From Paramesorhizobium deserti (lineage in GTDB: Bacteria; Pseudomonadota; Alphaproteobacteria; Rhizobiales; Rhizobiaceae): DNA of 64,000 nucleotides. Both the position numbers and the translations under genes were made by a program. Every line of letters starts with the position of its first letter. The stretch's first letter is position 1. Below, piece after piece: positions 9,291-56,707 of the stretch. The stretch covers positions 992,001 to 1,056,000 of the forward strand of contig NZ_LNTU01000001.1 in the NCBI RefSeq assembly GCF_001558695.1. Direction: 5' to 3'. A model generated the notes under the pieces. That model saw only the letters and a program-made list of their open reading frames with translations, searched no databases and was not told the DNA's origin.

Positions 9291-9317
9291 TGACGGAGGA
9301 GGAATGCCCCTCCGTCA
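9291..9317. terminator. hairpin between tadC and fabI
   Basis: Perfect 9-base arms TGACGGAGG (9291-9299) and CCTCCGTCA (9309-9317) sit in the 50-base gap between two convergent genes. There is no strong T-run, so this is a likely but weak bidirectional terminator. Confidence 0.6.
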
Positions 9318-9326
9318 GAGCTCCAA

Positions 9327-41029: not shown

Positions 41030-42439
41030 TCAAGCGGCCTGATCGGCTCCCGTCGTACCTCCAGGTTCGGCGGCGAGCACTTGGAGGAAATCCTCGCACC
41101 AGCGGGAGACGTCGTGCTCCAGGAGATGCGGCATCATCTGGTTCCAGCGCTCGCGACGCGCTTCGAGCGGCATGGAAAGCGCGCGGGCGATGGCGTTCGA
41201 CACCGCCTCGATATCATAGGGATTGACCAGCAGCGCGCCGTCGAGCTCGCGCGCGGCGCCGGCGAAGCGCGACAGGATGAGGACACCCGGATCCTCGGCG
41301 CGCTGGGCCGCGACATACTCCTTGGCGACAAGGTTCATGCCGTCGCGAAGCGGCGTCACCAATCCGACCTTCGCCATACGATAAAGACCGGCGAGCACAT
41401 TGCGGCCAATGGAACGGTTGACATAGCGGATCGGCACCCAGTCGACCGCGCTGACGGCGCCGTTCACCCGACCCGCAAGCTCGGCCACCGTGCGCTGCAT
41501 ATCCTCATATTCCGGCACTTCGGAACGGGATTTCGGCGTGATCTGCAGGAAGGTCACCTTGCCCTGGCTGCCGGGATTGTTGGTGATGAAATGCTCGAAG
41601 GCCTCGATGCGGTTGGTGATGCCCTTGGAATAATCGAGCCGGTCGACACCGATGATCAGGTCGCGCTCGCCGAGGCTCTTCTGCATACGCTGCACCATGG
41701 CATGGCGCTGCGCGTTCTGCGCGACATGGGCGAAGGCTGATGTATCGATGGCGATCGGGAACACTTCGGCCCGGAAGACATGGCCATAAGCCTCGAAAAG
41801 GCCATTCCCGATTTCCCGGCCGATACCCTCACGCTTGAGGCATCCCGCGAAATTCTCGACATCGTGGCTGGTCTGGAAGCCGATCACGTCATAGGAGGCA
41901 AGCCCGCGCATGATCGTTTCATGGACGGGAAGCGTGAACAGCACATCCGCCGGCGGCCACGGGATATGCAGGAAGAAGCCGATGCGATTCTTCAGCCCCA
42001 TCTGGCGCAATTCCGAAGCGAGCGGGATAAGGTGGTAATCATGCACCCAGATCATATCGTCCGACTTGACGAGCGGGGCGAGGTGATGGGCGAAGAGACG
42101 GTTGACCCGGAAATATCCCGCCATGTCCTTGCGCGCATATTCGGTCAAGTCCAGGCGGTAGTGGCACAGCGGCCAGAGAACGCGGTTGGCGAAGCCCGCA
42201 TAATATTCGTCGACATCCTTGCGGCTCAGATCGACCAGGGCATAAGTGATTTTGCCATGCTCTTGAATATTGATGCCCGGCTTTTCGCGGGCGGATATCG
42301 ACTTGCCCGACCAGCCCATCCATACGCCGCCGCGCTCCTCAAGTGCTGCCTGAAGCGCGACGGCAAGGCCACCTGCGGGGGCGGTGCCGCTTTTATCCGG
42401 GAGCGGCACCCGGTTCGATATGACGACAAGTCGGCTCAT
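41030..42439 (-). CDS. otsA: trehalose-6-phosphate synthase
   Basis: GT20 glycosyltransferase joining UDP-glucose and glucose-6-phosphate. The 469-residue product has S-N-R-V-P near the start, W-V-H-D-Y-H-L, G-V-D-R-L-D-Y-S-K-G and T-P-L-R-D-G-M-N-L-V-A-K-E. GGGAGGA precedes the chosen ATG, which overlaps the GH15 stop (ATGA). Osmotic or desiccation protection is the usual role. Confidence 0.96.
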   Translation of the reverse strand: MSRLVVISNRVPLPDKSGTAPAGGLAVALQAALEERGGVWMGWSGKSISAREKPGINIQEHGKITYALVDLSRKDVDEYYAGFANRVLWPLCHYRLDLTEYARKDMAGYFRVNRLFAHHLAPLVKSDDMIWVHDYHLIPLASELRQMGLKNRIGFFLHIPWPPADVLFTLPVHETIMRGLASYDVIGFQTSHDVENFAGCLKREGIGREIGNGLFEAYGHVFRAEVFPIAIDTSAFAHVAQNAQRHAMVQRMQKSLGERDLIIGVDRLDYSKGITNRIEAFEHFITNNPGSQGKVTFLQITPKSRSEVPEYEDMQRTVAELAGRVNGAVSAVDWVPIRYVNRSIGRNVLAGLYRMAKVGLVTPLRDGMNLVAKEYVAAQRAEDPGVLILSRFAGAARELDGALLVNPYDIEAVSNAIARALSMPLEARRERWNQMMPHLLEHDVSRWCEDFLQVLAAEPGGTTGADQAA

Positions 42440-44274
42440 AATACGTCCTCCCATGAGCGCGAAAGATGCATGGCGGCGTTAATGAGGCCGACCATGGAGT
42501 AGGTCTGCGGAAAATTGCCCCACAATTCTCCGGTCTCGACATGCAGTCCCTCCGACAGCAGCCCCAGATGATTGCGGTGCTCCAGCACTTCCTCGAAAAC
42601 GGCGCGGGCATCTTCGGTGCGCCCTGCGCGGGACAACGCCTCGATCAGCCAGAAGGTGCAGGCCGTGAAGGCAGTCTCCGGCTCGCCGAAATCGTCCGGC
42701 GTGCGGTATCTGTAGAGATGATTGCCGAAACGCAGATATTTTTCAACCGCGTCGAGCGTTGCGAGAAACCGCGGATCGGACGCCGGCAATATGCCGACCT
42801 CCGGCATCAGCAGCAGGCTGGCATCGAGATCCTCGCCGTCGAAGGCGGAGGCGAAATATCCCTTCTCGGCGTTCCATGCGCGGGCGAGCGTCTCCTCGCG
42901 GATCGCCTGGGCGACCTGGCGCCAATGGGCGGCGCGATCCTCTATGCCGAGCTTGGCGGCGATGCGCGAAAGCCGGTCGCAGGCGGCCCAGCACATGACG
43001 CTGGAATGGGTGTGGACGCCGTTGCGGGTGCGGAACTCCCACAGGCCGGCATCGGGCTGATTCCAGCGCGCCGCGGCCTGCTCGCCCAGCGGCTCGAGGC
43101 TGCGGAACAGTGCCTCGTCACCCATGGTCGGCAGCCGCTCGTCGAAGAAGCATTGCGCGATGGCGAGGATGACCGAGCCATAGCCATCATTCTGCACCTG
43201 CAGATAGGCGGCGTTGCCGCTGCGCACCGGCCCGAGATTGCGATAGCCGGGGAGGCTCGCCATCAACTCCTCGTCGAACCGGCGTTCGAGGCCGAGCCCG
43301 AACAGCGGCTGGAGATAGCCGTCGGGGGAGCCGGCGGCGATGTTGGTGACATAGCGCAGGTAATCCTCCATGGTCTTGGTCGCTCCCAGCCGGTTCAGCG
43401 CCTTGACCGTGAAATAGGAATCCCTCAGCCAGCAGAAGCGGTAATCCCATGTGCGCCCGCTTGCGCCATATTCGGGAATGGACGTGGTGAGTGCGGCGAC
43501 GATGCCGCCGGTCTCCTCATTGGCGCAGAGCTTCAGCGTGATCGCCGCGCGGATGACGACGTCCTGCCAGTCCACCGGCAGTGAGAGATAGCGCACCCAT
43601 TCGATCCAATATTCACGGGTTTCATTGAGGAAATCCTTCGCCACGCGCATCGGCGATTCCTGCAATGTCTCGTCAGGCCCCAAAACGAAGGCATAGGGCC
43701 GGTCGACGATGAAGGGCATTTCTTCCTGGACGAAGGTTATGGGTGCATCCGTGGTGAGGCGGACCACCTGCGGGCCCATCAGGAAGCGCAGATGGTTGGA
43801 GCCGCGCGTCGTGTCGGGAATATTGGCGCCGTAATTATAGCGCGGGCGCAGGCGCATCGTCATGCGCGGGGTGCCGACAACAGGCTCCACCAGCCTGATG
43901 ATGGCCATCGGCCGGAAGATGCGGTCGTGATGCTTGAAACGGGGGGCGAAATCGCGGATGCGCAGGCTGTTGCCCTTTTCGTCGGTCAGCACCGTTTCGA
44001 GCACGGCCGTGTTGCGTATATAGCTCTGCTGGCTCGATACGAGATTGTCGATCTCGATCGCCCAGTCGCCCCCTTCCTGCTCGGGATTGCCCTGGCCCAA
44101 AAGGCTGCAGAAGATCGGATCACCGTCGAGACGCGGCGTGCACATCCAGACGAATTTGCCATAGCGGTCGATGAGCGCGGCGGCGGCGGAATTGCCGATC
44201 ACACCCAGATCGAGCGAGGGAAGCTGCTTGAGATCGAGAGGAGAATTATTCATCAAAATATCCGGATTGTTCAT
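42436..44274 (-). CDS. glycoside hydrolase family 15 protein (trehalase/glucoamylase-like)
   Basis: 612-residue protein with an N-terminal beta-rich domain (about 20-215) and a C-terminal (alpha/alpha)6 GH15 domain (about 230-600). Its motif region is G-R-T-W-D-Y-R-F-C-W-L-R-D-S-Y, and the late Glu lies in L-S-E-G-L-H-V-E-T-G-E. No signal peptide, so cytoplasmic. It lies between otsB and otsA with 4-base overlaps on both sides. GH15 members include bacterial trehalases, so trehalose turnover is the likely role, but the substrate is not proven. Confidence 0.86.
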   Translation of the reverse strand: MNNPDILMNNSPLDLKQLPSLDLGVIGNSAAAALIDRYGKFVWMCTPRLDGDPIFCSLLGQGNPEQEGGDWAIEIDNLVSSQQSYIRNTAVLETVLTDEKGNSLRIRDFAPRFKHHDRIFRPMAIIRLVEPVVGTPRMTMRLRPRYNYGANIPDTTRGSNHLRFLMGPQVVRLTTDAPITFVQEEMPFIVDRPYAFVLGPDETLQESPMRVAKDFLNETREYWIEWVRYLSLPVDWQDVVIRAAITLKLCANEETGGIVAALTTSIPEYGASGRTWDYRFCWLRDSYFTVKALNRLGATKTMEDYLRYVTNIAAGSPDGYLQPLFGLGLERRFDEELMASLPGYRNLGPVRSGNAAYLQVQNDGYGSVILAIAQCFFDERLPTMGDEALFRSLEPLGEQAAARWNQPDAGLWEFRTRNGVHTHSSVMCWAACDRLSRIAAKLGIEDRAAHWRQVAQAIREETLARAWNAEKGYFASAFDGEDLDASLLLMPEVGILPASDPRFLATLDAVEKYLRFGNHLYRYRTPDDFGEPETAFTACTFWLIEALSRAGRTEDARAVFEEVLEHRNHLGLLSEGLHVETGELWGNFPQTYSMVGLINAAMHLSRSWEDVL

Positions 44275-45086
44275 TGCGCAATTTCCGATAGCCACGATCG
44301 CAGGGTGGCGGGGGATTCCATATATAGTTTTGCCGAGGAGACCTTCTCTGCCGGAGAACCGATCTTCACCGAGAGGCCGTTAGCGGCATTGGCCGCCTTG
44401 AACATCGACTCATCCGTCACATCGTCGCCGAAGGCGAGCGGCCGCCTCGCGGAAAAGGGCGGGCCGGCCATGTAGGCTGCAAGCGCATAGCCCTTATCAT
44501 GCGCGGCGGGCCGCAGTTCCGTGACCAGCTTGCCCTGCTGCAGGGTCCATTGGGGACCGGCGATTTCGGCGATCTCGCGCATGAGCTTCTGCATGTCTGG
44601 CTCGAATTGCGGCGCCTGGCGGTAATGCACGGCGATTGCCGCATGCTTGTCCTCGACGAGGATCTCCGGCCAGTCGCGCGCCCGCTTCTTCAACGCACCC
44701 TTCGCCCGCAGGAAATCCGGCGTGAGCTCGATATGGCTGGTGCGGCCGGTCGGATCGCGCCGTTCGGCGCCATGCAGGCCCGCCACGGGAAAGCGCGCGC
44801 CGCGAAAGATCTCGTCGACGAAAGCGATGGAACGGCCGGTGACCAGCGCCAGCGCGCCGTCGAGCTTGTGCGAGAGGGTGGCGAGGTTCTGAATAAGCCC
44901 TTCCGGAACCCGCACCGTCCCGGGTGTTTCGGCGATATCGAGCAGGGTTCCGTCGATATCGAGGAAGATCGCCCAATCGGCGAGCGCGTTGCGGCTGCCG
45001 TCGGGCAATCCAAGCGGAAAGACGGGGCTTCCAGATGGTGCGGTCTTGGGAGGACTGGCCATCGGGTCGTGCTCTTTCAAAGACAT
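44271..45086 (-). CDS. otsB: trehalose-6-phosphate phosphatase
   Basis: HAD-superfamily phosphatase, 271 residues, releasing trehalose. Motif I F-L-D-I-D-G-T-L-L-D (nucleophile Asp43, Asp45), motif III around K-G-Y-A-L, motif IV F-G-D-D-V-T-D-E. The frame extends to a TTG at 45155; I chose the ATG M-S-L-K-E-H, with another ATG (M-A-S-P-P-K) eight codons later. First gene of the ots unit. Confidence 0.94.
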   Translation of the reverse strand: MSLKEHDPMASPPKTAPSGSPVFPLGLPDGSRNALADWAIFLDIDGTLLDIAETPGTVRVPEGLIQNLATLSHKLDGALALVTGRSIAFVDEIFRGARFPVAGLHGAERRDPTGRTSHIELTPDFLRAKGALKKRARDWPEILVEDKHAAIAVHYRQAPQFEPDMQKLMREIAEIAGPQWTLQQGKLVTELRPAAHDKGYALAAYMAGPPFSARRPLAFGDDVTDESMFKAANAANGLSVKIGSPAEKVSSAKLYMESPATLRSWLSEIAQ

Positions 45087-45369
45087 GCCGTAAAGGTAGT
45101 TCGGACCGCCGGAGGAGACAACCGCAAGAGGTTCGAAAATGTTGCGTTGCGGCAACGTATTGCAATTATTGTGCTTCTTTTGAAGATAAGCATTTCACGC
45201 AGCGGATGCGCGTTGCCGCCTGCTTCACGATCGCAGGACAAAATTTGCGATCCATCTTTAAAGCTCAAATTTTCTCCATATCTCTTGAGAACGAGAGACA
45301 AGTTCATATCTTCATAGTTGGATTTGGCTTGGGGTCTTCCGCAACGTTTTCGAGAAAATGGAGAAAGCG

Positions 45370-45752: not shown

Positions 45753-46781
45753 CTACGCCTTGCGCCGTTTGCGCTGGCGATACTGATCGGCGACCACCGC
45801 CGCGACGATGATAACGCCTTTGACGATCTCCTGATAATAGGCGTCGATGCGCAGGAAGGTGAAGCCTGATGTCATGACGCCGAGGATGATCGTGCCGATG
45901 ACGGTGCCGGTGATGCGGCCGACACCGCCCGACAGGGAGGTTCCGCCGATGACGGCAGCCGCGATGGCATCGAGCTCATAGGCGACGCCCATGCCCGCCT
46001 GGCCCGAGATGGCGCGGGCCGAGAGCACCACACCCGCCAAGCCCGAGAGGAGGCCGGCAATGGCATAGACCTTGATCAGATGACGGCCGACATCGATACC
46101 CGAGACGCGGGCCGCCTGCATGTTGGCGCCGATGGCGTAGGTAAACTTGCCATAGCGCGTGTAGCGCAGCGCGATATGGAAAATGAGCGCCACCAGGAGG
46201 AAGATCACCACCGGCCAAATGCCGGAGCCGATGGCGGCGTAATTGTCGCTCAACATCGAGACCGGCTGGCCGCGCGTATACCATTTCGCCATGCCGCGAG
46301 CGGCCACCATCATGCCGAGGGTGGCGATGAAGGGCGGGATGCCGGTATAGGCGATGAGGCTGCCGTTGATGAGACCGGCGACCGCGCCGGCGGCAAGCCC
46401 CGCCAGCACCGGCACGAGAACCGGCATGTCGGTGAGCATGGGATAGACCGCCCGGGCATAATCGGAGGTCTGGGCTAGGCTGGCGGCGACCATCGCGGTC
46501 AACCCCACCACGGAGCCGGACGAAAGATCGATGCCGCCTGTTATGATGACCTGCGTGACGCCGACGGAAATGATGCCGATGACCGAGACCTGAAGGATCA
46601 TCACCACCAGGCGCTGCCTGTTGAAAAGAAAGCTCTGGCCGACGAGAAGCCAACCCAGAAGCTCGAAAACCAGTGCGATGCCGATCAGCACCAGAAAGAT
46701 ATTCGCCTCCGACGGCATCTTGCGCCGGTGCCGCGGCTTTTCCAGCCGTTGCACGGGTTGCGTCATCTGTTCCATCGCCAT
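45753..46781 (-). CDS. sugar/cyclitol ABC transporter permease (RbsC-like)
   Basis: Inner-membrane permease of the carbohydrate uptake-2 class, 342 residues and about eight to ten helices. It has the RbsC pattern V-T-Q-V-I-I-T-G-G-I-D-L-S-S-G-S-V-V-G-L and I-A-A-A-V-I-G-G-T-S-L-S-G-G. Downstream of its ATPase (31 bases). Ribose- and inositol-type porters share this form; the neighbours favour an inositol-like substrate. Confidence 0.93.
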   Translation of the reverse strand: MAMEQMTQPVQRLEKPRHRRKMPSEANIFLVLIGIALVFELLGWLLVGQSFLFNRQRLVVMILQVSVIGIISVGVTQVIITGGIDLSSGSVVGLTAMVAASLAQTSDYARAVYPMLTDMPVLVPVLAGLAAGAVAGLINGSLIAYTGIPPFIATLGMMVAARGMAKWYTRGQPVSMLSDNYAAIGSGIWPVVIFLLVALIFHIALRYTRYGKFTYAIGANMQAARVSGIDVGRHLIKVYAIAGLLSGLAGVVLSARAISGQAGMGVAYELDAIAAAVIGGTSLSGGVGRITGTVIGTIILGVMTSGFTFLRIDAYYQEIVKGVIIVAAVVADQYRQRKRRKA

Positions 46782-46812
46782 TGCTCCCTCCCGGTTCTAT
46801 AGCGTGATGAGA

Positions 46813-48351
46813 TTATTGCGCGGCCAGTTCCATGATCTTGACCTGGCTGGCCTCGGCGCGATCGAGGAAACCGGTCACGCGCCCTTCATGCATGACCATG
46901 ATGCGGTCGCTCATGCCGAGCACCTCGGGCATTTCCGACGAGATCATGATGACGGCGACGCCCTCGCTCGCGAGTTTGGTGATCAGCCGGTGTATCTCCG
47001 CCTTGGCGCCGACATCGATGCCGCGCGTCGGCTCATCGAGGATGAGAATGCGCGGGCGCGTCAGCAGCCAGCGCCCGATCAGCACCTTCTGCTGGTTGCC
47101 GCCGGAGAGGTTCTCGATCCGCTCGTTGAGATCGGGGGTCTTGATGCGCAGCGCCTCGCGCATGCGCTCGCATTCGCGCGCGACCTCGGCTTCCGAGACG
47201 AAGCCGCGCTTGACATATCTGTCGCGCAGCACCGCCATCTGCATGTTTTCGAGAATATCGAGGACGAGGAAGCAGCCGGTATCCTTGCGATCCTCGGTGA
47301 GGAAGGCCATGCCGTGGCGCATTGCGATAGCAGGCGTTTTGACATCGATCGCGCGTCCGTTGATCGAAATCTCGCCCGATGTGGCGGGTGTGACGCCGAA
47401 CAGCGCCTCGGCGACATTGGAGCGGCCCGATCCGACAAGACCGGCAAGGCCGAGTATCTCGCCGGCGCGCACGTCGAACGAGATATCGTGGAAGACGCCT
47501 TTGAGCGTGAGATTTTTCACCGAAAGGACGACATCGCCGATCGGCACCTCCTCCTTGGGAAACATCTGGGTGATCTCGCGTCCGACCATCATGCGGATGA
47601 TATCGTCGCGCGTCACCTCGTCGGCCTTGTGCGTGCCGATATAATGGCCGTCTCGGAATACCGAGACCTCGTCGGCGATCTCGAACAGCTCGTTCATCTT
47701 GTGCGTGATATAGACGATGCCCTTGCCCTCGGCCTTGAGCGCCCGGATGATCTCGAAGAGATGCTCGACCTCGCGCTCGGTCAGCGCCGAGGTCGGCTCG
47801 TCCATGATGAGCACGTCGGATTCATAGGAGACCGCCTTGGCGATCTCGACCATCTGGCGATTGGCGACCGACAATTCGCCAACATTGATCTCGGGATCGA
47901 TGCGGATATTGAGCCGGGAGAACAATTCCTCGGTCTTCTCGCGCAGCGCACGGTGATCGACAAAGCCGAAAGCATTCTTCGGCTCCCGCCTGATCCAGAT
48001 ATTCTCCGCCACCGTCATATAGGGCATCAGGTTCAATTCCTGATGGATCATGGCGATGCCGTTTTCCAGCGCGTCGAGCGGCGAATTGAGCTCGATCTCG
48101 TTGCCGCGTAATTTGAAGGAGCCGCTGTCGGGCGTGTAGATGCCGGCGATGATCTTCATCAACGTCGATTTGCCGGCGCCGTTCTCGCCCATCAGCGCAT
48201 GCACGCTGCCGCGCCTGAGCCGGAAGGACACGTCGTCCAGCGCGATGACGCCGGGGAAGGTCTTGCGCACGCCTTCGACTTCCAAAAGAAACTCCGAATT
48301 GGGAACCGCTCCTGAATCGCGCACGGCGCGCATCGTCACAGGGCTTATCAT
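46813..48351 (-). CDS. sugar/cyclitol ABC transporter double ATPase (RbsA-like)
   Basis: 512-residue fused ATPase with two ABC domains. The first has Walker [10 protein letters not shown] and an L-S-V-A-N-R-Q signature; the second has the degenerate Walker A L-V-G-S-G-R-S-N, which is usual in RbsA/XylG/MglA, and [15 protein letters not shown] precedes the ATG. Partner of the permease and binding protein on either side. Confidence 0.95.
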
Positions 48352-48390
48352 TCCGCTTCCTCCCTTTTCCGGATCATTCCTCGCCCTGCC

Positions 48391-48444
48391 CCTCTCCCCG
48401 TCCCCCCGACCTTTGGGCAGGCCTCATTTGAGGACGGGGAGAGG
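48391..48444. repeat. palindrome between ATPase and binding-protein genes
   Basis: Arms CCTCTCCCCGTCC (48391-48403) and GGACGGGGAGAGG (48432-48444) are 13 perfect pairs in the 214-base gap. It may dampen read-through so that the binding protein is made in excess over the ATPase, a common layout in such operons. Confidence 0.6.
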
Positions 48445-48565
48445 CATGAGCGCCTACATTTTGTCTTATCCTTTGCGGGACGACCGAGACCCGCGGCTCG
48501 ATCCCGGGGCTATGCCGGCGGGCAGATGAGGGCGCTCATATATGCCTGCCCCACCTCGAAGGAGG

Positions 48566-49492
48566 TCAGTTCTTGGCCATGTACTGGTCCATGTTTTCCG
48601 GCGTCACGAGCTCGAAGGGCACCCAGACCATGGATTCCACCTTTTCGCCCTTGGCGAGCTTGAGGGCGGTATCGATCGCGCCCGACCCTTGAGCGGCGGC
48701 ATTCTGGAAGACGGTGACGCGCAGATCGCCTGCCTTCATGGCCGCCAGCGCATCCTGGGTCGCGTCGATGCCGGCCACCAGCACATCCTTTGTCGAGATG
48801 CCCGAAGCTTTCAGGGCCTGGATTGCGCCGATCGCCATTTCATCATTGTTCGAGACGATGGCGTTGGGTTTCAGCCCGGCGCTGATCCAGTTGGTCACGA
48901 GATCGGTGCCGAGTGTGCGCTGCCAATTGCCGGTCTGCTTGTCGAGGATCTTGATGTCCTTGCATTCATCGGTAGCGATCACATCCTCGACGTCCTGGGT
49001 GCGCTGGCGCGCCGCCTGGTTGGACAGTTCGCCCATCAGCACGACGATCTCACCCTTTCCGCCAAGAATCCGGCAGACTTCCTTCATCTGCAGCGTACCC
49101 GAATCCACCTCGTTGGAACCGACGAAGGAAACCTTCTCCGGCAGCTCCTTGTCGGCCGGCATGCGGTTGACATAGACAAGCGGAATGCCGGCAGCGGTAG
49201 CGAGTTGCGTCATCTTCGGCGTCGCATCGGTATCAACCGGATTGACGACGATGGCATCCACCCCTTGTGCGATGAAGTTCTGGATCTGGCTCAGTTGCTT
49301 GGAAACGTCATTCTGTGCGTCCTCGACCTGGAGATTAACGTCATCCTTGGTCTTGGCGTAATCCTGCATGCCATTGCGCAGGACGGTCAGAAAGTTATCG
49401 TCGAACAACGCCATCGACACACCGATATTCTCGGCGAGCGCCGAGCCCGTCATCAGCGCTGAAACGGCGGCCGCCAAAAGAAATTTCTTCAT
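48566..49492 (-). CDS. periplasmic sugar/rhizopine-type binding protein (MocB-like)
   Basis: Solute-binding protein of the Peripla_BP_4 class, 308 residues with a signal peptide cleaved after A-L-A (about residue 20). Core motifs Q-G-V-D-A-I-V-V-N-P-V-D-T and A-I-V-S-N-N-D-E-M-A-I-G. This resembles the inositol and rhizopine-binding proteins of rhizobia and Brucella by recall. GGAGGAG precedes the ATG. The ligand is unknown; a methylated cyclitol is inferred from the neighbouring Moc-like genes. Confidence 0.88.
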   Translation of the reverse strand: MKKFLLAAAVSALMTGSALAENIGVSMALFDDNFLTVLRNGMQDYAKTKDDVNLQVEDAQNDVSKQLSQIQNFIAQGVDAIVVNPVDTDATPKMTQLATAAGIPLVYVNRMPADKELPEKVSFVGSNEVDSGTLQMKEVCRILGGKGEIVVLMGELSNQAARQRTQDVEDVIATDECKDIKILDKQTGNWQRTLGTDLVTNWISAGLKPNAIVSNNDEMAIGAIQALKASGISTKDVLVAGIDATQDALAAMKAGDLRVTVFQNAAAQGSGAIDTALKLAKGEKVESMVWVPFELVTPENMDQYMAKN

Positions 49493-49651
49493 TTCGCTTC
49501 TCCTCCACTTTTTGGTGCCCGGCTGCACCCCTTTATCCGGAAACTCCCCCTCCCAGGGGAATTCTTGGCCTTCCGCCGTCAGTGAAGCACTCCCGATGCT
49601 TTCCGTCCCTTCGGCAGTCGCTCATCAGCAAAACGGAATGAATGGACCGTT

Positions 49652-49698
49652 TTTCAGTTCAGTGAAACATTTATTCCATTTTATTTTCGCGCCGTCAA
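49652..49698 (-). promoter_or_regulatory. promoter and LacI-type operator for the ABC operon
   Basis: Minus strand: -35 TTGACG (49693-49698), 17-base spacer, -10 AATAAA (49670-49675). Directly downstream, TTTCA-GTTCAG-TGAAA (49652-49667) is an inverted repeat of LacI-operator size, placed so that a bound repressor would block transcription. Confidence 0.5.
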
Positions 49699-49729
49699 TT
49701 CCGCAATTGGAGCTCCATTAAACTAAAAT

Positions 49730-49766
49730 GCCGCCGCAGCCGGTGTTGTGTTCGGGATGCGGCGGC
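49730..49766 (-). terminator. terminator after the IolI-like gene
   Basis: Arms GCCGCCGCA (49730-49738) and TGCGGCGGC (49758-49766), followed on the minus strand by ATTTTAGTTTA. It separates the isomerase from the binding-protein promoter. Confidence 0.7.
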
Positions 49767-49789
49767 GTTTCGGTTCGCTTCGGATCGGC

Positions 49790-50644
49790 TCAGGCGGCGG
49801 CTTTTGCGAAGCTCCGGCGGATGAACGCCATGCTGGCGGTGATTTCGCGCTCGGGCTCCTTCAAATCATGCACTTCCTGCGCAAAGGGCTCGAAAGACAA
49901 GGGTCCGTCATAGCCGCCCGCAAGCAGCGTGCGGATCTGAGCGGTGTTATCGAGCCGATCTTTTTCATTGACCAGAACGCGATGGGCGTCGCGCATCTCG
50001 GCATAGGTCAGCGCCGGATCGGCCACGCCTGAGATATGGACGAGCCCGATCAATTCCGGGAAAAAGGCGTCCTCACCCGCCAGCGTATGGTGGAAGGTGT
50101 CGTGCACCAGCCGGAAGACATTCTCGCCCGCGACATCCGCGATGGCTTCAGCCGCCTCGCGCTTGGAGCGCAGGGAGCAGATTTCAAAACCGAGCGGCTC
50201 GACCAGCCCGATAAGGCCGCGTTCCGCCAGGATCGGCTTCAACTGCTCCAGCGCCTCGCGCAGATTGCGCTGGCGCTCGCCATCCGCCTGGCCGGTGCCG
50301 TCATTGACGGGCACCAGCACCAGCGCCTTGGCGCCGCTCGCCCGGGCATAATCGGCAAGCTCGGCGGCTTCCGCCGCACGCGCCGGCGTCCACTCGTTAA
50401 AGCGCTGCAGAGCGTTGATCGAGATGATGGTGACGCCAGCCTCATCGGCAAGGCGGCGCGCTTCATCGGCAGGCACGGTGCGGATGTCGCCTTTTCCCGG
50501 CGAACCGTCTTCCATAAGATCGTTACGGATCTCGACCTCGTTCATGCCGAGCCTGCGGGCAAGCGCGAAAAGCCCGGCCATGTCCAGCCCCGGCACCGTC
50601 ATATGGTTCAAAGCAAAACGCGGCGGAGCGCTGCGATCGGTCAT
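49790..50644 (-). CDS. IolI/IolE-like TIM-barrel isomerase (sugar or inosose)
   Basis: 284-residue xylose-isomerase-like TIM-barrel protein with metal ligands expected in L-V-E-P-L-G-F-E, V-H-D-T-F-H-H, V-H-I-S-G and S-F-E-P-F. It resembles IolI (2-keto-myo-inositol isomerase) more than sugar isomerases, and rhizobial MocC belongs to the same fold. Next to the ABC genes and the LacI regulator, so it probably acts on the imported compound. The exact reaction is not provable here. Confidence 0.8.
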   Translation of the reverse strand: MTDRSAPPRFALNHMTVPGLDMAGLFALARRLGMNEVEIRNDLMEDGSPGKGDIRTVPADEARRLADEAGVTIISINALQRFNEWTPARAAEAAELADYARASGAKALVLVPVNDGTGQADGERQRNLREALEQLKPILAERGLIGLVEPLGFEICSLRSKREAAEAIADVAGENVFRLVHDTFHHTLAGEDAFFPELIGLVHISGVADPALTYAEMRDAHRVLVNEKDRLDNTAQIRTLLAGGYDGPLSFEPFAQEVHDLKEPEREITASMAFIRRSFAKAAA

Positions 50645-50821
50645 CTCTCAATCCTCCCAAAACCGGCCGGCCGCCGACGCTTTGGCAGCCGATGCAGATG
50701 GCCCAATCCAGTGTCACGCCCGAGAGCAAAGTCAATCAGGATGCGGAGCCGCACGCCCAGAACCTATCAAGGCTGATGGAATGGCGCTCTGGGCTGATGG
50801 ATTTCCATCAGATAGGAAGGA

Positions 50822-51859
50822 TCAAATTGTCTCGGAAATATGCATGTCGAAGGGAAGGAATATTTGCCCCGGCGTATCGGCTCCGCCGGTTTCGATCGCA
50901 CGGCCCATCTGGGTGACCAGCTCACGCGAAAGCCGCTCCAGCGGCGTGGCGATCACCAGCGTGATCACGCATTCGGCAAGGGCGGCGCGGCTGTCCGGCG
51001 TGATCTCGTTGCAGACGGTGACGAGGCGGCTGGCGCGGGCAATCCCCTCCTCCCGCAGCGCCGCAATCGCACCTTCCATGCCGCCGCCGGCGAGATAGAG
51101 CCCGGCGAGATCGGGATAACGCTGCAGGAGATCGAAGCTCGCCTCCTGCGCGATATGGTGATCGTCGAGATTGACCAGCGTGTCGATGACCTCGAATTCC
51201 GGCGCGTGCTCGCGGAAGAAGGTGCGGAAGCCGATCTCGCGCAGCTCATGGCCGTGAAACCGGTGGCTGCCGACAAAGATGGCTACCTTTCCCGGCCTTT
51301 TTGCCGCCTTGGCGATCATCCAGGCCGCGGTGCGCCCGACCTTGCGGTTGTCGAGCCCGATATAGCTCTCACGCACACCGGAAGCGAAATCGGAAAGAAG
51401 CGAGAAGACGGGGATGCCTCGCTCCTTCAGGTCGGCTACCGCCGCCGTAATCGTTGGATGATCAACAGAGACCATGGCGACGGCCCGGCAACGGGCAGCC
51501 ACCTCATGCAGTTTGGCGGCGATCTCCGCAGGCGTGCGCATGGCGAAATGATCGATGTGGGCGGTACCGCGAAAACCCTGGGCGTTCTCGACCGCGTTCT
51601 TCAGCTCCCGCGCGAAAGCCTGGTAGAAGGGCTGGTCGGGCCGTTGCAGGATGAAACCCAAGTGATAGTGCGGCAGATCCTGCTGCAGCCTGTGTCGGAT
51701 CAGCCCCGCCGCATGATAGCCGATGGCATTGGCCGCCTCATAGACGCGGCGCGCCGTCTCCTCGCGCACCGGCAGCCGGCCATTGAGCACCCGGTCGACC
51801 GTGGCGACGCTGACGCCGGCTTCAGCAGCCAGATCGGCGATGGTCGGACGCTTGGCCAT
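50822..51859 (-). CDS. LacI-family repressor
   Basis: 345-residue regulator: N-terminal HTH T-I-A-D-L-A-A-E-A-G-V-S-V-A-T-V-D-R-V-L-N-G-R and a periplasmic-binding-like sensor domain with late C-N-E-I-T-P. The D-R in place of the common S-R after the recognition helix is seen in inositol/rhamnose-type members. Lies between the transport genes and the divergent moc-like operon; likely controls both. Confidence 0.93.
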   Translation of the reverse strand: MAKRPTIADLAAEAGVSVATVDRVLNGRLPVREETARRVYEAANAIGYHAAGLIRHRLQQDLPHYHLGFILQRPDQPFYQAFARELKNAVENAQGFRGTAHIDHFAMRTPAEIAAKLHEVAARCRAVAMVSVDHPTITAAVADLKERGIPVFSLLSDFASGVRESYIGLDNRKVGRTAAWMIAKAAKRPGKVAIFVGSHRFHGHELREIGFRTFFREHAPEFEVIDTLVNLDDHHIAQEASFDLLQRYPDLAGLYLAGGGMEGAIAALREEGIARASRLVTVCNEITPDSRAALAECVITLVIATPLERLSRELVTQMGRAIETGGADTPGQIFLPFDMHISETI

Positions 51860-51899
51860 CAATGTCTCCCATGAGAAGAATGCATCAGCACTACAAGGC

Positions 51900-51937
51900 T
51901 GAAATGATGTATTCTGATAGAAAATATCATCACTTCA
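51900..51937. promoter_or_regulatory. inverted repeat in the lacI/mocD divergent promoter
   Basis: Arms TGAAaTGATG (51900-51909) and CATCAcTTCA (51928-51937) match at nine of ten positions around an 18-base A/T-rich spacer. It is in the divergent promoter region (51860-51998) and is probably an operator, but it differs from the one at 49652. Confidence 0.5.
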
Positions 51938-51998
51938 TTGAGGAGGTCAATTGCTGCGGATACGCTTCCTGTCGGTGAAATGCAGAGAGGAGGCTGTC

Positions 51999-53090
51999 AT
52001 GAACGCCATACCGACAATCCGCGACTACAGCCTGATCGGGCGTGATGCGCAGGCCGCCGTGGCAAACGGGCTTACCGCCGCCGAATGGTATCACACCGAC
52101 GTCCCGCGCAAGCAGATGAAGGATCTGATGAAGCGCAGCGACGGGCCGGCGATCCGCGACACGATCATCTGGCTCGGCTGCATGGCTCTCTTCGCCGGGC
52201 TCGGTATCGCTCTCTGGGGCAACTGGTGGAGCGTGCCGTTCTTCCTCGCCTATGGCGTGCTTTACGGTTCGGCGGCGGATTCGCGCTGGCACGAATGCGG
52301 GCACGGCACGGCGTTCAAGACGCGCTGGATGAACGACGCGGTCTACCAGATCGCCTCCTTCATGATGATGCGCAATCCCGTGACCTGGCGCTGGAGCCAC
52401 GCGCGGCACCATACCGACACGATTATCGTCGGCCGCGACCCGGAGATCGCCGTGATGCGTCCGCCGGATCTTCTGCGCCTCGTCCTCAATTTCTTCGGCC
52501 TGCTGGATGCCTGGCACGCTGTCGGCGACATGCTGCGCAATGCCTGTGGCAATGTCAGCGCGGAGGAAAAGACCTTCATCCCCAAACAGGAGCAGCACAG
52601 GGTGGTGCGGATCGCGCGCATCTGGGTGGCGATTTATGCGGCAACCATCGCGCTCGCGGTCGCCATGGGATCGATCCTGCCCCTGATGCTGATCGGCCTG
52701 CCCCGGCTCTATGGCGCGTGGCACCACGTGCTGACCGGGCTTCTGCAGCATGGCGGGCTTGCCGACAATGTCACCGACCACCGGCTCAACAGCCGCACCG
52801 TCTATATGAATCCCGTCAGCCGCTTCATCTACTGGAACATGAATTACCATGTGGAGCACCACATGTTCCCGATGGTGCCCTATCACGCATTGCCGAAGCT
52901 GCACGAGGCGATCAAGCACGATCTGCCGGCCCCGAACCCATCAATTTTCCACGGTTATCGCGAGATGATCCCAGCCTTCATCCGGCAGTTGCGCAACGAA
53001 GACTATTTCCTCAAGCGCGAATTGCCGCCGACGGCCAAGCCATACCGGGAGGAGTTTCACAGCGATGCCATCGCTCAGGCAGCGGAATAG
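51999..53090 (+). CDS. mocD: desaturase-fold hydroxylase (MocD-like)
   Basis: Membrane di-iron oxygenase of 363 residues. Three His boxes are complete: H98-E-C-G-H102, H134-A-R-H-H138 and H284-V-E-H-H288; hydrophobic segments lie at about 55-90 and 205-245. Followed by its own Rieske ferredoxin and reductase, it matches MocD of the rhizopine demethylase MocDEF, not a lipid desaturase. GAGAGGAGG precedes this ATG. A second strong site (AGGAGG at 51941) with TTG 51951 would add 16 residues. Confidence 0.85.
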   Translation: MNAIPTIRDYSLIGRDAQAAVANGLTAAEWYHTDVPRKQMKDLMKRSDGPAIRDTIIWLGCMALFAGLGIALWGNWWSVPFFLAYGVLYGSAADSRWHECGHGTAFKTRWMNDAVYQIASFMMMRNPVTWRWSHARHHTDTIIVGRDPEIAVMRPPDLLRLVLNFFGLLDAWHAVGDMLRNACGNVSAEEKTFIPKQEQHRVVRIARIWVAIYAATIALAVAMGSILPLMLIGLPRLYGAWHHVLTGLLQHGGLADNVTDHRLNSRTVYMNPVSRFIYWNMNYHVEHHMFPMVPYHALPKLHEAIKHDLPAPNPSIFHGYREMIPAFIRQLRNEDYFLKRELPPTAKPYREEFHSDAIAQAAE

Positions 53091-53130
53091 CCCGATCGGC
53101 ATCGCTGTCCAGCAGAATGGGAGGAAAGAA

Positions 53131-53445
53131 ATGAGTAACTGGATCGAAGCCTGCGCGGCGAACGATATCGACGAGGAGGACGTCATCCGCTTCGATCATG
53201 ACGGGCGCACCTTCGCCATCTATCGCAGCCCTGATGACGAATATTTCGCCACCGACGGCCTCTGCACCCATGAGCATGTGCATCTGGCGGATGGCCTGGT
53301 CATGGACGAGATCATCGAATGCCCGAAGCACAATGGCCGTTTCGACTACAAGACGGGCGAAGCCAAAGGCGCCCCCGTCTGCGTCAATCTCAGGACCTAT
53401 CCGGTGAAAGTCGAAGCCGGAAAGGTCTTCATCGGAATCGAGTGA
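53131..53445 (+). CDS. mocE: Rieske-type ferredoxin (MocE-like)
   Basis: 104-residue soluble [2Fe-2S] protein with ligands Cys45-T-His47 and Cys64-P-K-His67, exactly spaced for a Rieske cluster. It would pass electrons to the upstream hydroxylase. GGGAGGAAAG precedes the ATG (M-S-N-W-I-E); an upstream in-frame start lies inside mocD. Only 40 bases from the oxygenase gene. Confidence 0.93.
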   Translation: MSNWIEACAANDIDEEDVIRFDHDGRTFAIYRSPDDEYFATDGLCTHEHVHLADGLVMDEIIECPKHNGRFDYKTGEAKGAPVCVNLRTYPVKVEAGKVFIGIE

Positions 53446-53450
53446 CGGCG

Positions 53451-54680
53451 ATGGATGCGGGAATGGTCATCATCGGCGCCGGCGAATGCGGGGCGCGGGC
53501 AGCATTCGCGCTGCGCGAACAGGGCTATGACGGCCCGGTGACGCTGGTCGGCGCGGAGCGTCATCTGCCCTATGAGCGGCCGCCGCTCTCCAAGGAAACG
53601 ATGCTGGCGGACAACCCGCAGGCAAAGACCATCGCCGATCATGTGCGGCTCGCGGCGCATGACATCGATTTCATCGCGGAGACGGCAGTGACGGCCATCG
53701 ACCGCGATGCGCGCAGTGTACAACTCGGCAACGGCCCCAGCCTCCCCTATGAACGCCTGTTGCTTGCGACCGGTGCTGTGCCGCGCCGCCTGTCCTTCGT
53801 CCATGGGCCGCGTATGGCATATTTGCGCACTTTCGACGACGCGCTGGCGATCCGCCGTCATCTCGGCCCGGGCCGGCCCATTGCCATCATCGGCGGCGGC
53901 TTTATCGGGCTGGAGCTCGCGGCTTCCGCACGCCGGCTCGGCGCGGAAGTCATTCTGATCGAGGCACAGCCGCGCATCCTGATGCGCGGGGTGCCGGAGG
54001 AAATCGCCAGCGTGATCGACGCCCGCCACCGGGCCGAAGGCGTGGAGCTCGTCACCGGCGACGGCATCGCCGATATGGCGGACGATGACGCCTCCGTCAC
54101 CATTCGCCTTGCGAGCGGCAGGCGCGTGGATGCCGATCTCGCCATCATCGGCATCGGGGCAATGCCAGTGACCGATCTGGCGCAAGCCGCAGGGCTTGTG
54201 ATCGACAACGGCATTGCCGTCAACGAGCATCTCAGGACGAGCGATCCGCATATCTTCGCCGCCGGAGATTGCTGCTCGTTTCCTCTCGCGCTTTATGGCG
54301 GCCGTCGAGTGCGGCTCGAAGCCTGGCGCAATGCGCAGGAACAGGGGGCGCTTGCGGCAAGGAACATGCTGGGTCTTGCCGACGAGCCGTATGGTGCCGT
54401 GCCGTGGTTCTGGTCCGATCAATATGATCTCGGGCTGCAGATCGCGGGGCTTTGCGACGAAGGCAAGCGTGTCGTGCGCCGCGATGTCGGGGATGCCGCG
54501 TTCATCCTGTTCCATCTCTCCGAGGACGGCAGGCTGGTGGCAGCAAGCGGCATCGGACCGGGAACGGCGGTCGCAAGGGACATACGGCTCGCCGAAATGC
54601 TGATCGCCAGGGGTACGAGACCGGACGCACAGCACCTTGCCTCGCCGGCAACGAAGCTCAAGGCGCTGCTTGCGGCATAG
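53451..54680 (+). CDS. mocF: FAD-dependent ferredoxin reductase (MocF-like)
   Basis: 409-residue NAD(P)H:ferredoxin reductase of the rubredoxin/putidaredoxin reductase type. FAD site V-I-I-G-A-G-E-C-G-A-R at the N-terminus, NAD(P) site A-I-I-G-G-G-F-I-G-L-E near residue 145, F-A-A-G-D-C near 270 and a C-terminal reductase domain. Start chosen 6 bases after the mocE stop. Third component of the demethylase chain. Confidence 0.92.
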   Translation: MDAGMVIIGAGECGARAAFALREQGYDGPVTLVGAERHLPYERPPLSKETMLADNPQAKTIADHVRLAAHDIDFIAETAVTAIDRDARSVQLGNGPSLPYERLLLATGAVPRRLSFVHGPRMAYLRTFDDALAIRRHLGPGRPIAIIGGGFIGLELAASARRLGAEVILIEAQPRILMRGVPEEIASVIDARHRAEGVELVTGDGIADMADDDASVTIRLASGRRVDADLAIIGIGAMPVTDLAQAAGLVIDNGIAVNEHLRTSDPHIFAAGDCCSFPLALYGGRRVRLEAWRNAQEQGALAARNMLGLADEPYGAVPWFWSDQYDLGLQIAGLCDEGKRVVRRDVGDAAFILFHLSEDGRLVAASGIGPGTAVARDIRLAEMLIARGTRPDAQHLASPATKLKALLAA

Positions 54681-54701
54681 AATTCATAAGGGGAGACAAG
54701 C

Positions 54702-55502
54702 ATGTCGTCGAAAAGACCGACGGTCGCCGATGTTCTGGCGCTGAAAGGCAGGAATCAGCTCACCATGCTACGGGTGACCACGCTGGAGGAGGCGGAAGCC
54801 GCCCAGAAGGCCGGTGTGGAGATGCTTTCAGTCCCGCCGGAGCTGATGACCGATCCGCGGTTCCGCGATGCCGCGCCCGATTGTTTCACCGTGCCGGGCG
54901 GCGACAAGAGCGTCTATGTGACGAAGGACGAATGCCTCGGCGAAGCCTTCCGCATGATCCGCGCCGGAGCCGACGCCGTCTATTGCGCGGCAGGGCTCGA
55001 TACCATCCGCACGCTCAGGGCGGAGGGCGTTCCCGTCTGCGGCCATGTCGGGCTGATCCCATCCAAGGCGACTTGGACGGGCGGTTTCAAGGCCGTCGGC
55101 AAGACGGCGGAAAGCGCGTTTCAGGTCTGGAAGCAGGTGCGGACGCTCGAGGAGGCAGGCGCCTTTGCCGCCGAGATCGAAGTCGTGCCGGCGGAGGTGG
55201 CGACCGCGATTTCCAAGCGGACCTCACTCTTCATGATCTCGATGGGGGCCGGTGCCGGTTGCGACGCGCAATATCTCTTCGCTGAAGACGTGCTCGGTGC
55301 CCATCGCGGCCATTACCCGCGCCATGCCAAGGTCTATCGCAATTTCGCCGCCGAATATGACCGCCTGCAGCGGGAGCGCGTCGCCGCCTTTGCGGAATTC
55401 GTTGCCGATGTCGAAAAGGGCGTCTATCCCGGGCCGGGCCATGTCGTCCGGATTCCCCGTGACGAACTCGACCGCTTTCTCAACGATCTTGCCGGAGCAT
55501 GA
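54702..55502 (+). CDS. divergent PanB homologue (ketopantoate hydroxymethyltransferase fold)
   Basis: 266-residue TIM-barrel protein of the PanB family: V-C-G-H-V-G-L-I-P near 112, G-G-F-K-A-V-G-K, E160 in I-E-V-V-P-A-E (matching the catalytic Glu region), G-A-G-A-G-C-D-A-Q and K-G-V-Y-P-G-P-G-H. By hand alignment, the metal ligands of PanB (Asp45, Asp84, Glu114 in E. coli) seem replaced, since V-G-D-S is S-V-P-P and V-K-I-E-G is V-Y-C-A-A-G here. It therefore is probably not pantothenate synthesis but some one-carbon reaction beside mocDEF and purU. AAGGGGAG precedes the ATG. Confidence 0.8.
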   Translation: MSSKRPTVADVLALKGRNQLTMLRVTTLEEAEAAQKAGVEMLSVPPELMTDPRFRDAAPDCFTVPGGDKSVYVTKDECLGEAFRMIRAGADAVYCAAGLDTIRTLRAEGVPVCGHVGLIPSKATWTGGFKAVGKTAESAFQVWKQVRTLEEAGAFAAEIEVVPAEVATAISKRTSLFMISMGAGAGCDAQYLFAEDVLGAHRGHYPRHAKVYRNFAAEYDRLQRERVAAFAEFVADVEKGVYPGPGHVVRIPRDELDRFLNDLAGA

Positions 55503-56407
55503 AACCGATGAACCTTTCCGTGACATCCACCAGGGGAACCGAAACCGCCCTGCAGCATGCCAGCGCCTACATCCTGACGCTTTCCTGCGAGGATCAGCCG
55601 GGGATTGTGGCTGCTGTGACGACGGAGCTTGCGGGCGTCGGGGCGAACATCGCCGAGAGCAACCAGTTCTGGGACCGCCAGACCAACCGCTTCTTCATGC
55701 GCATCGCCTTCACCGTGGCGGAAGGGATTGCCAAGGACGACATCGAGCGCGGCATCAAGCCGGCGGTCGAGCGCTTTGCCATGAAGACGCCGATCGTCGA
55801 TCAGGCGAGACGGCCAAGGATCATCATCATGGTCTCGAAATTCGACCATGCCATGCTGCATCTCCTCTACCAGATCCGCGTCGGCTGGCTCGACGCCGAG
55901 GTGGCGGCGATCGTCTCCAACCATGAAGATTCACGCCGCACCGCCGAGCTGGAAGGCATCCCCTATCTCTATTGGAAGGTGACCAAGGACAACAAGGCCG
56001 AGCAGGAGGAGAAGCTGATCGCGCTGGTCAAGGAGACCGGCGCCGATCTGGTCATCCTCGCCCGCTACATGCAGGTGCTCTCCGACACTCTGTCAAAACG
56101 GCTCTACGGCAAGGTGATCAACATCCACCATTCCTTCCTGCCGTCGTTCAAGGGGGCGAAGCCCTATCACCAGGCGCATGAGCGCGGCGTCAAGCTGATC
56201 GGCGCCACCGCGCACTATGTCACCCCCGATCTCGACGAAGGCCCGATCATCGAGCAGGAGACAGAGCGCGTGACGCATGCGATGAGCGCCGATGATTTCG
56301 TGGCGACCGGCCGCGACATCGAGGCCCGCGTGCTCGCCCGCGCCGTCAAGCAGCATCTCGAAAGCCGGGTCATGCTCAACGGCCACAAGACAATTGTGTT
56401 TGGGTGA
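55499..56407 (+). CDS. purU: PurU, formyltetrahydrofolate deformylase
   Basis: Releases formate and tetrahydrofolate from 10-formyl-THF. The 302-residue product has an N-terminal ACT domain (about 20-100) and a formyltransferase-like domain with I-N-I-H-H-S-F-L-P-S-F-K-G-A, G-A-T-A-H-Y-V and L-D-E-G-P-I-I-E-Q (catalytic Asn, His, Asp). Its ATG overlaps the PanB-like stop (ATGA), so it is coupled to the demethylase operon. Next ATG three codons on. Confidence 0.93.
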   Translation: MKPMNLSVTSTRGTETALQHASAYILTLSCEDQPGIVAAVTTELAGVGANIAESNQFWDRQTNRFFMRIAFTVAEGIAKDDIERGIKPAVERFAMKTPIVDQARRPRIIIMVSKFDHAMLHLLYQIRVGWLDAEVAAIVSNHEDSRRTAELEGIPYLYWKVTKDNKAEQEEKLIALVKETGADLVILARYMQVLSDTLSKRLYGKVINIHHSFLPSFKGAKPYHQAHERGVKLIGATAHYVTPDLDEGPIIEQETERVTHAMSADDFVATGRDIEARVLARAVKQHLESRVMLNGHKTIVFG

Positions 56408-56707
56408 AGGAAAGGGCGGCTTTGCCGCCGGCCTGTTCCGATCCCGTTGCGGATGACTAGACTGTTTCCGCCTCTCAGCCGTGGATCCTCGGATCAAGCC
56501 CGAGGATGACGAAGGGAGAGATGGGATCGGAGTAACGTTCTGGCGTTGCGCCTGCCAATCCGTCAAAAAATGTCAGCCTCTGCGTCTGTCATTTGGCACC
56601 TTGCCTTCTACAGTCGCCATCCTCGGGCTTGACTCGAGGATCCACGGCAAGGGAGCGCCGACATACCCTTAAGCGGAGGCACGATCCAGAAAGCCGGAAC
56701 GGGCAGC
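56408..56707. other. intergenic region with an inverted pair of repeats
   Basis: No gene seen. The 33-base unit at 56478-56510 (gccgtggatcctcgg-atcaa-gcccgaggatgac) recurs inverted at 56616-56648 with few mismatches, 105 bases apart. Similar tcgtcatcctcgggcttga units are widespread in alphaproteobacterial genomes by recall. Between convergent purU and the M29 peptidase. Confidence 0.65.

Follow-up and report, generated by a model that had tools for sequence, protein, structure and literature searches.

The 64,000-nucleotide stretch of the Paramesorhizobium deserti genome analyzed here (contig NZ_LNTU01000001.1, positions 992,001 to 1,056,000; hereafter the window) includes, between nucleotides 45753 and 56407, ten open genes that probably make up an island for the catabolism of an O-methyl-inositol, in which the methyl group would be removed by a MocDEF-type oxygenase and disposed of as a one-carbon (C1) unit through tetrahydrofolate (THF) to formate. 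The genes form two divergent groups. The leftward group codes for a LacI regulator, a PF01261 TIM-barrel protein, a periplasmic binding protein, a two-domain ATP-binding cassette (ABC) ATPase and a permease, and the rightward group consists of mocD, mocE, mocF, a gene for a PanB-like protein that we call PanBL, and purU. An earlier note on this DNA had proposed the uptake and demethylation of a rhizopine-like methyl-cyclitol with C1 disposal; the sequence comparisons below favor most of that interpretation and refine it: PanBL and PurU are not obligatory partners of mocDEF, and a methyl-inositol is a likelier substrate than rhizopine. A Pfam and NCBIfam profile search of the window proteins agrees with the ten genes and domains that it named, and the ATGA overlap that it reported between the PanB homologue and purU is present at 55499-55502. 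The features of the locus are as follows.

45753..46781, minus strand: ABC transporter permease, CUT2, RbsC-like (PF02653, BPD_transp_2, 143.6 bits; 64% identity to the permease of the Peteryoungia LacI-mocDEF locus).
46813..48351, minus strand: ABC transporter ATP-binding protein with two ABC domains (PF00005 in two stretches; 74% identity to the Peteryoungia copy).
48566..49528, minus strand: periplasmic binding protein, MocB relative (PF13407, Peripla_BP_4; 62-64% identity to MocB of the R. lentis and S. meliloti rhizopine loci).
49790..50644, minus strand: TIM-barrel isomerase/epimerase-like protein (PF01261; best solved relatives 2q02/4hgx, E 8.8e-40).
50822..51862, minus strand: LacI-family regulator, FixV-like (PF00356 and PF13407; 63.5% identity to the LacI directly before nifA in Mesorhizobium sp. 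131-3-5).
51915..51929, strand not assigned: predicted LacI operator TGATAGAAAATATCA, TGATA-N5-TATCA (conserved palindrome in lacI-mocD gaps).
51999..53090, plus strand: MocD-like membrane di-iron oxygenase of the desaturase fold, proposed O-demethylase (PF00487, FA_desaturase; 81% identity to MocD of the R. lentis rhizopine locus).
53131..53445, plus strand: MocE-like Rieske ferredoxin (TIGR02377 over cut-off; 79-85% identity to rhizopine-locus MocE).
53442..54680, plus strand: MocF-like ferredoxin reductase (PF07992, Pyr_redox_2, and PF14759, Reductase_C; 58% identity to R. lentis MocF).
54702..55502, plus strand: PanBL, PanB-related with a remodelled active site, proposed C1 transfer to THF (PF02548, 142 bits; TIGR00222 below cut-off; 68% identity to the gene behind R. 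lentis mocF).
55499..56407, plus strand: PurU, formyltetrahydrofolate deformylase (TIGR00655 over cut-off; ATGA overlap with PanBL).

The most likely start codons are ATG 51999 for mocD, ATG 53131 for mocE and GTG 53442 for mocF. MocE passes TIGR02377 with 189.5 bits (cut-off 136.15), and PurU, which includes PF01842 (ACT) and PF00551 (formyl transferase), passes TIGR00655 with 327.8 bits (cut-off 285.95). The binding protein and the transporter belong to the ribose/galactose class of NCBIfam, and the assignment of the former to the MocB class agrees with its identity to MocB. The TIM-barrel protein had been called an IolI-like isomerase; its PF01261 family match is the whole basis for that label, as neither an IolI-specific nor any NCBIfam match was obtained and 2q02 and 4hgx were the only PDB matches.

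The same genes are found in rhizopine loci. In plasmid p4 of Rhizobium lentis (L069) and p_1 of Sinorhizobium meliloti RCAM1115 (L068), iolE/mocC, Gfo/Idh genes, mocB, mocR, mocD, mocE, mocF, PanBL and purU lie in one stretch, and two further loci (L218 and L242) show the same order. With 722-757 bits (740 for R. lentis), the MocR of each of these four loci exceeds the cut-off of 650 bits set for the curated rhizopine MocR model, and PanBL and PurU genes sit behind mocDEF in all four loci, so both belong to the rhizopine operon too. Identities between the window and the R. lentis locus are 81% for MocD, 79% for MocE, 58% for MocF, 68% for PanBL, 50% for PurU and 62% for the binding protein and MocB. 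In the available part of PMC10107442 mocDEF is treated as one unit, and the words ketopantoate and formaldehyde are absent. The S. meliloti RCAM1115 mocD (L068, 9227-10296) was recovered as two overlapping tblastn pieces, is absent from the gene table and is possibly frameshifted.

Gene neighbors were counted in 80 named loci, the best 80 of 442 relatives, which were selected for PanBL and are biased to close kin; the counts are lower bounds because many of these loci end at contig ends. In this set mocD was found in 75 loci, mocE in 73, mocF in 54, LacI in 47, the window-type TIM barrel in 36, purU in 27, iolG (inositol dehydrogenase) in 17 and folD in 8. The earlier note had named failure of mocD, mocE, mocF, PanBL and purU to co-occur elsewhere as an outcome that would speak against it; all five stand together in 22 of the 80 loci. 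In the nearest relative (G002) the block is kept through PanBL with 84-97% identity and purU is cut by the contig end, and in three members of the family (L032-L034) LacI, the TIM barrel and mocD through PanBL are kept, with the transporter in two of the three. Plasmid pMHb of Mesorhizobium huakuii 7653R (L341, MCHK_8413-8419) carries the TIM barrel-LacI pair and then mocD-mocE-mocF-PanBL-purU-folD, six operon genes with zero internal stops. PanBL matches at E 1e-25 or better were obtained in 51 of 397 Hyphomicrobiales genomes, some true PanB included, and 279 of 72,556 plasmid records match. The gene order is found again across many genera of the Hyphomicrobiales, and therefore it is not a product of chance. 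One metagenome-assembled genome labelled as a beta proteobacterium (L186) includes a PanBL 70% identical to that of the window, by misbinning or transfer.

PanBL had been described as a degenerate PanB homologue, a fair reading since it scores 111.3 bits against the panB model TIGR00222, whose cut-off is 207.55; yet the protein is not decayed and appears to represent a coherent, conserved family distinct from PanB. This was seen in an alignment of 88 PanBL and 29 PanB sequences, split by the better tblastn score after matches shorter than 500 bases had been dropped. Asp45 is found in 29 of 29 PanB and in 4 of 88 PanBL, and Asp84 in 25 of 29 and 1 of 88, respectively. Lys112, present in all 29 PanB, is replaced by Tyr or Met in 83 of 88 PanBL, and Glu114 (25 of 29 PanB, with Gln in the other four) by Ala or Ser in 62. 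The window PanBL has Pro, Gly, Ala and Tyr at the Asp45, Asp84, Glu114 and Lys112 positions. Residues 51-55 are missing in 88 of 88 PanBL and the other residues of 50-68 in no fewer than 86, while His136, Pro141, Gly154, Glu181 and Asp217 are retained in all 88; Glu179 and His229 are strict in PanBL (88/88) and occur in 4 and 2 of the 29 PanB. We take Asp45, Asp84, Lys112 and Glu114 of PanB to be the metal and ketoacid site, and Glu181 to be the base; a literature search on PanB catalytic residues gave nothing relevant. The pattern fits the loss of the ketoacid/metal half of the site with the other part kept. Thus PanBL shares with the ketopantoate hydroxymethyltransferase PanB the PF02548 domain, His136, Glu181 and several glycines, and differs from it by these losses and by its gene neighbors. 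Decay was rejected on the strict retention of His136, Glu179, Glu181 and His229 in 88 of 88 PanBL. In a PanBL tree from which loci under 14 kb were left out, the rows nearest to the window have the LacI-TIM-mocDEF architecture.

Three observations on the edges of the family are recorded here. Divergent PanBL genes lie beside MocD-like genes or PhyH in alphaproteobacterial genomes of 1.4-1.6 Mb (L139-L142, L147, L153). In one of these (L147) PanBL occurs as a tandem pair. L126 codes at 9307-10101, 75 bases from a Rieske oxygenase gene of the same strand, for a protein that resembles PanB more closely than PanBL and possibly represents a third branch.

An oxygenase of one of four families was found within 6 kb in 74 of 88 PanBL loci and in 4 of 27 true PanB loci, and a MocE-type match in 63 of 88 and 0 of 27, respectively; the P values of these enrichments ignore the relatedness of the genomes. 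A stricter overlap rule gave an oxygenase in 71 and a MocE-type match in 62 of the 88 PanBL loci. The families at PanBL were MocD (57), the fatty-acid-hydroxylase type (10), PhyH (8) and Rieske oxygenase (4), some loci having two, and those at true PanB loci were PhyH (2) and Rieske (2). Direct neighbors of PanBL include a hydroxylase in L113 and L116, PhyH in L037 and a Rieske oxygenase in L124. PanBL accompanies several oxygenases and not a single one, which indicates a shared C1 product.

The disposal of the C1 unit through THF to formate, as proposed in the earlier note, finds agreement in the position of folD: FolD adjoins PurU in 8 of the 8 FolD-bearing loci of the 80 and in L341, which would complete the folate route, and likewise in L069 and L070. 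These assignments rest on tblastn and the M. huakuii annotation, the FolD profile having partly mislabelled PurU as FolD, and the PurU and FolD counts of the neighbor profile scan are undercounts because of overlapping reading frames. The FolD behind PurU is free of stops to residue 279 of the E. coli query in L221, L222, L230 and L341, and a partial match was obtained in L188, L204 and L209, which reach contig ends, and in L242. The P. deserti genome includes one FolD and two PurU. The ATGA overlap of PanBL and purU is kept in a genome of the same genus (L031). The two purU genes share 99.3% nucleotide identity over 843 bases (window 55568-56410; contig C34, L273 6464-7306) and no similarity beyond, which makes them candidates for a recent duplication or gene conversion. 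The G002 contig breaks inside purU and no full PurU was found there, perhaps because of the same repeat. A quick PurU tree, in which the window PurU groups with other PurU of its own genus, gave 12 changes of operon location, at least 8 of them forced by well-supported branches; this tree carried long-branch warnings, counted L287, which has no PanBL, as an operon copy, classed the other copies without regard to their neighbors, and omitted L179, L184 and L201 (too short) and L319, L323 and L326 (doubles). PurU thus appears to have joined or left such loci repeatedly.

The window LacI is 62.3% identical to the LacI beside mocDEF in S. meliloti, and 63.5% identical to the LacI that lies directly before nifA in Mesorhizobium sp. 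131-3-5 (L340) and is taken as FixV by position. The available text of PMC3538637 places FixV homologues beside mocDEF, often before Msi119-type genes, gives PF01261 also as the Pfam family of Msi119, and proposes an inositol derivative as the FixV inducer. FixV-type regulators are characterized there by about 60% identity to FixV, divergence from mocD and a place beside a TIM-barrel gene, and the window LacI shows all three. The palindrome TGATA-N5-TATCA was first noticed in the window and in L031 and then sought in 47 further lacI-mocD gaps. Over the 49 gaps the best match was exact in 22, had one mismatch in 22 and two in 5, while in mononucleotide shuffles a match with two mismatches or fewer was reached in 3.5 of 49 gaps. 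Since these gaps share descent, the palindrome is to be read as a conserved footprint and not as 49 independent events. The window has one site with at most one mismatch, that at 51915, where 0.25 are expected, and the motif occurs at four places in the genome. We predict that it is the operator of the LacI regulator. At the FixV-nifA loci L338 and L340 no site with at most one mismatch was found; a one-mismatch site 577 bases before nifA in L343 and a two-mismatch site between LacI and nifA in L340 may both be due to chance. In two Mesorhizobium plasmids (L338, L343), nifA is preceded at a distance of about 4-5.5 kb by genes for a FixV-like LacI and a TIM-barrel protein, and two LysR genes occupy the interval.

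From the gene content and its conservation, the co-occurrence with rhizopine and iol genes, the conserved operator and the residue pattern of PanBL we infer the substrate, the demethylation chemistry, the activity of PanBL, the regulation and the induction of the island. The MocB-like binding protein and the CUT2 ABC transporter would import the O-methyl-inositol, and the FixV-like LacI would control the island at TGATA-N5-TATCA. Electrons would pass from NAD(P)H to MocF, MocE and MocD, and MocD would hydroxylate the methyl group, which would depart as formaldehyde or as a hydroxymethyl (hemiacetal) group. PanBL may then transfer or condense the C1 unit onto THF, FolD (a single chromosomal copy here, an operon gene in some relatives) would oxidize it to 10-formyl-THF, and PurU would hydrolyze the latter to formate and free THF. 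The inositol ring would be handled by the TIM-barrel protein together with chromosomal IolG/IolE/IolC/IolD/IolB-type enzymes.

PanBL is the sole gene of the rightward operon that has no role in a methyl-to-formate scheme, and it is placed exactly between the demethylase genes and purU. This slot before PurU/FolD suggests that it may load the C1 unit onto THF. Formaldehyde-activating enzymes are known for glutathione and methanopterin, and PanBL would be the folate counterpart. We tentatively advance, as one possibility, that PanBL is a new enzyme family by which the C1 unit arising in oxidative demethylation is loaded onto THF. The unit would come from formaldehyde, or directly from the hemiacetal made by MocDEF with no free formaldehyde formed, and the family would serve oxygenases of several unrelated types (MocD, fatty-acid-hydroxylase type, PhyH, Rieske) throughout the Alphaproteobacteria, including those with genomes of 1.4-1.6 Mb. 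It is quite possible, and compatible with the rest of the scheme, that PanBL is instead an aldolase joining formaldehyde to a metabolite, a hemiacetal opener or a scaffold, and that THF is loaded spontaneously. The C1-on-folate step is usually regarded as spontaneous, formaldehyde and THF condensing without an enzyme, and two mocD loci have no PanBL (L287, with mocD, mocF and purU, and L289), so the C1 route can run without it. A PanB-type aldolase, however, would presumably need Asp45, Asp84, Lys112 and Glu114, which PanBL has lost; the strict conservation of His136, Glu179, Glu181 and His229 speaks against a mere scaffold, and the position before PurU-FolD also argues for a folate role. At L289 (15240), mocD, mocE and mocF are accompanied by an FrmA-like formaldehyde dehydrogenase gene (60% to E. 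coli).

Several observations weigh against an island in which all these genes act together on a methyl-inositol. Among the 74 MocD places in the 397 genomes of the order, 33 have no PanBL within 7 kb, and in the 18 of these that were fetched no PanBL or PanB match was obtained at E 1e-4; PanBL and PurU are consequently not obligatory partners of mocDEF. PurU is found in just 27 and folD in just 8 of the 80 loci, many of which are cut by contig ends. A PurU match at E 1e-60 is absent in 11 of 27 searched genomes, 10 of which have PanBL (in G002 the contig ends within purU). FolD is broken by stops in the rhizopine loci L069 (13861-14481) and L218 (11841-12473) and in Peteryoungia (L070, 1532-2383). 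None of the three minor oxygenase families is, taken singly, significantly enriched over the PanB control, and for many of the less similar PanBL proteins no oxygenase was found nearby. The TIM-barrel protein is without a specific family match. Finally, Mesorhizobium sister PanBL operons include Gfo/Idh, TIM-barrel and DUF4432 genes, and thus some PanBL operons may act on methylated sugars.

As to the substrate, the link to methylated cyclitols drawn in the earlier note stands on the same genes lying behind MocR in four loci, on iolG in 17 of the 80 loci, and on iol genes in further loci. Peteryoungia has the block of the window with iolG right behind PanBL. In L138, PanBL, a Gfo/Idh gene, iolG, PurU and an IolC-type fusion (DUF2090 and PfkB) are consecutive. 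In L282, which has no PanBL, IolC-, IolD-, IolE- and IolB-type genes adjoin LacI-mocDEF, and L284 resembles it by similarity. In the P. deserti genome itself, IolE and IolG score above their cut-offs, and contig C34 carries genes of the IolC, IolD and IolB types. These genes and related loci, together with the lack of a MocR, favor O-methyl-inositols over rhizopine, and we consider pinitol, ononitol or a close relative the likelier substrate. Bahar (1998), known to us by a title in a reference list, reportedly presents a model of a ferredoxin oxygenase and the inositol pathway. A literature search on the breakdown of pinitol and methyl-inositols by rhizobia found no assigned operon. According to the available part of PMC8730688, legume nodules accumulate methyl-inositols, pinitol and ononitol among them.

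An O-methylated sugar (a methyl-hexose or methyl-pentose), demethylated and disposed of in the same way, is a rather unlikely substrate: the ribose/galactose class of the transporter and the Mesorhizobium sister operons point to it, but the window has the LacI-TIM-mocDEF architecture, whose relatives carry iolG and MocB-like proteins and which the nearest rows of the PanBL tree share, and in L282 the iol-type genes adjoin mocDEF. It is improbable that the locus degrades the rhizopine 3-O-methyl-scyllo-inosamine itself, in spite of the closeness of its MocD, MocE, MocB-like protein and PanBL to the R. lentis rhizopine locus. The earlier note had remarked that MocA and MocR homologues are not in the window; MocR is below cut-off in the whole genome as well (best 169 of 650 bits), all 21 inositol-dehydrogenase/MocA-type matches of the genome lie outside the window, where no IolE/MocC-type match was found either, and the regulator is a LacI, as in the inositol-dehydrogenase loci. 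Rhizopine was rejected as first-choice substrate on the lack of a MocR. Several cyclitols were offered to a MocR/PmocB sensor, and the available part of PMC6668481 reports scyllo-inosamine and 3-O-methyl-scyllo-inosamine as activating. A role of PanBL in pantothenate synthesis, or of MocD as a lipid desaturase, is highly improbable and both were rejected, since the public annotations that suggest them (3-methyl-2-oxobutanoate hydroxymethyltransferase and fatty acid desaturase) are opposed by the score of PanBL below the panB cut-off, a second, PanB-type match elsewhere in the genome, the 32 of 500 bits that MocD reaches with the best desaturase equivalog, and the company it keeps with MocE/MocF and sugar-type ABC transporters.

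Three described systems can be compared with the proposed O-methyl-inositol island. The moc locus (mocABRC, mocDEF) of S. meliloti and R. leguminosarum shares MocD, MocE, MocF, a MocB-like protein, and PanBL and PurU behind mocF, whereas the window has LacI in place of MocR, its own ABC permease and ATPase, and no MocA- or IolE/MocC-type match. The FixV (Msi360)-Msi119 pair of Mesorhizobium loti shares the LacI gene beside a PF01261 gene, divergent from mocD, and differs in that FixV activates nifA2 and thereby nitrogen fixation genes; the available text of PMC3538637 includes neither purU nor pantoate. The MABO-FolD-PurU genes of pAO1, which take an N-methyl group to formate (PMC6214936, available part), likewise combine demethylase genes with PurU in an operon, as do FolD-bearing relatives of the window; however, MABO is an FAD enzyme that makes methylene-THF itself, and the window has a di-iron oxygenase and a separate PanB-related protein. 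VanAB with FrmA is a precedent of the glutathione route (PMC10949508, available part).

The genes flanking the island do not look related to it: on one side they are OtsA, GH15 and OtsB-type genes plus one for a DUF982 protein, and on the other a gene for an M29 peptidase. The OtsA, GH15 glycosidase and OtsB-type genes stand in a row at 41030-45155, as a trehalose-type cluster.

The role of mocDEF as the ferredoxin oxygenase of rhizopine catabolism and the presence of FixV-like regulators beside mocDEF were known before. As far as our literature search reaches, the PanBL-PurU-FolD tail, including that of the rhizopine operon, the PanBL family with its possible C1-to-folate role, and the operator are new; the search on PanB with demethylation, Rieske, rhizopine and mocDEF found no report of PanBL in demethylation. 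The rhizopine demethylation operon gains two or three genes (PanBL, PurU and FolD), and with them a likely fate of the methyl group. A conserved family whose annotation points to vitamin B5 synthesis probably has another function, which may be that of a C1-on-folate enzyme. For regulators of the FixV type, one of which activates nifA2 in M. loti, the island offers a candidate operator and a candidate class of ligand.

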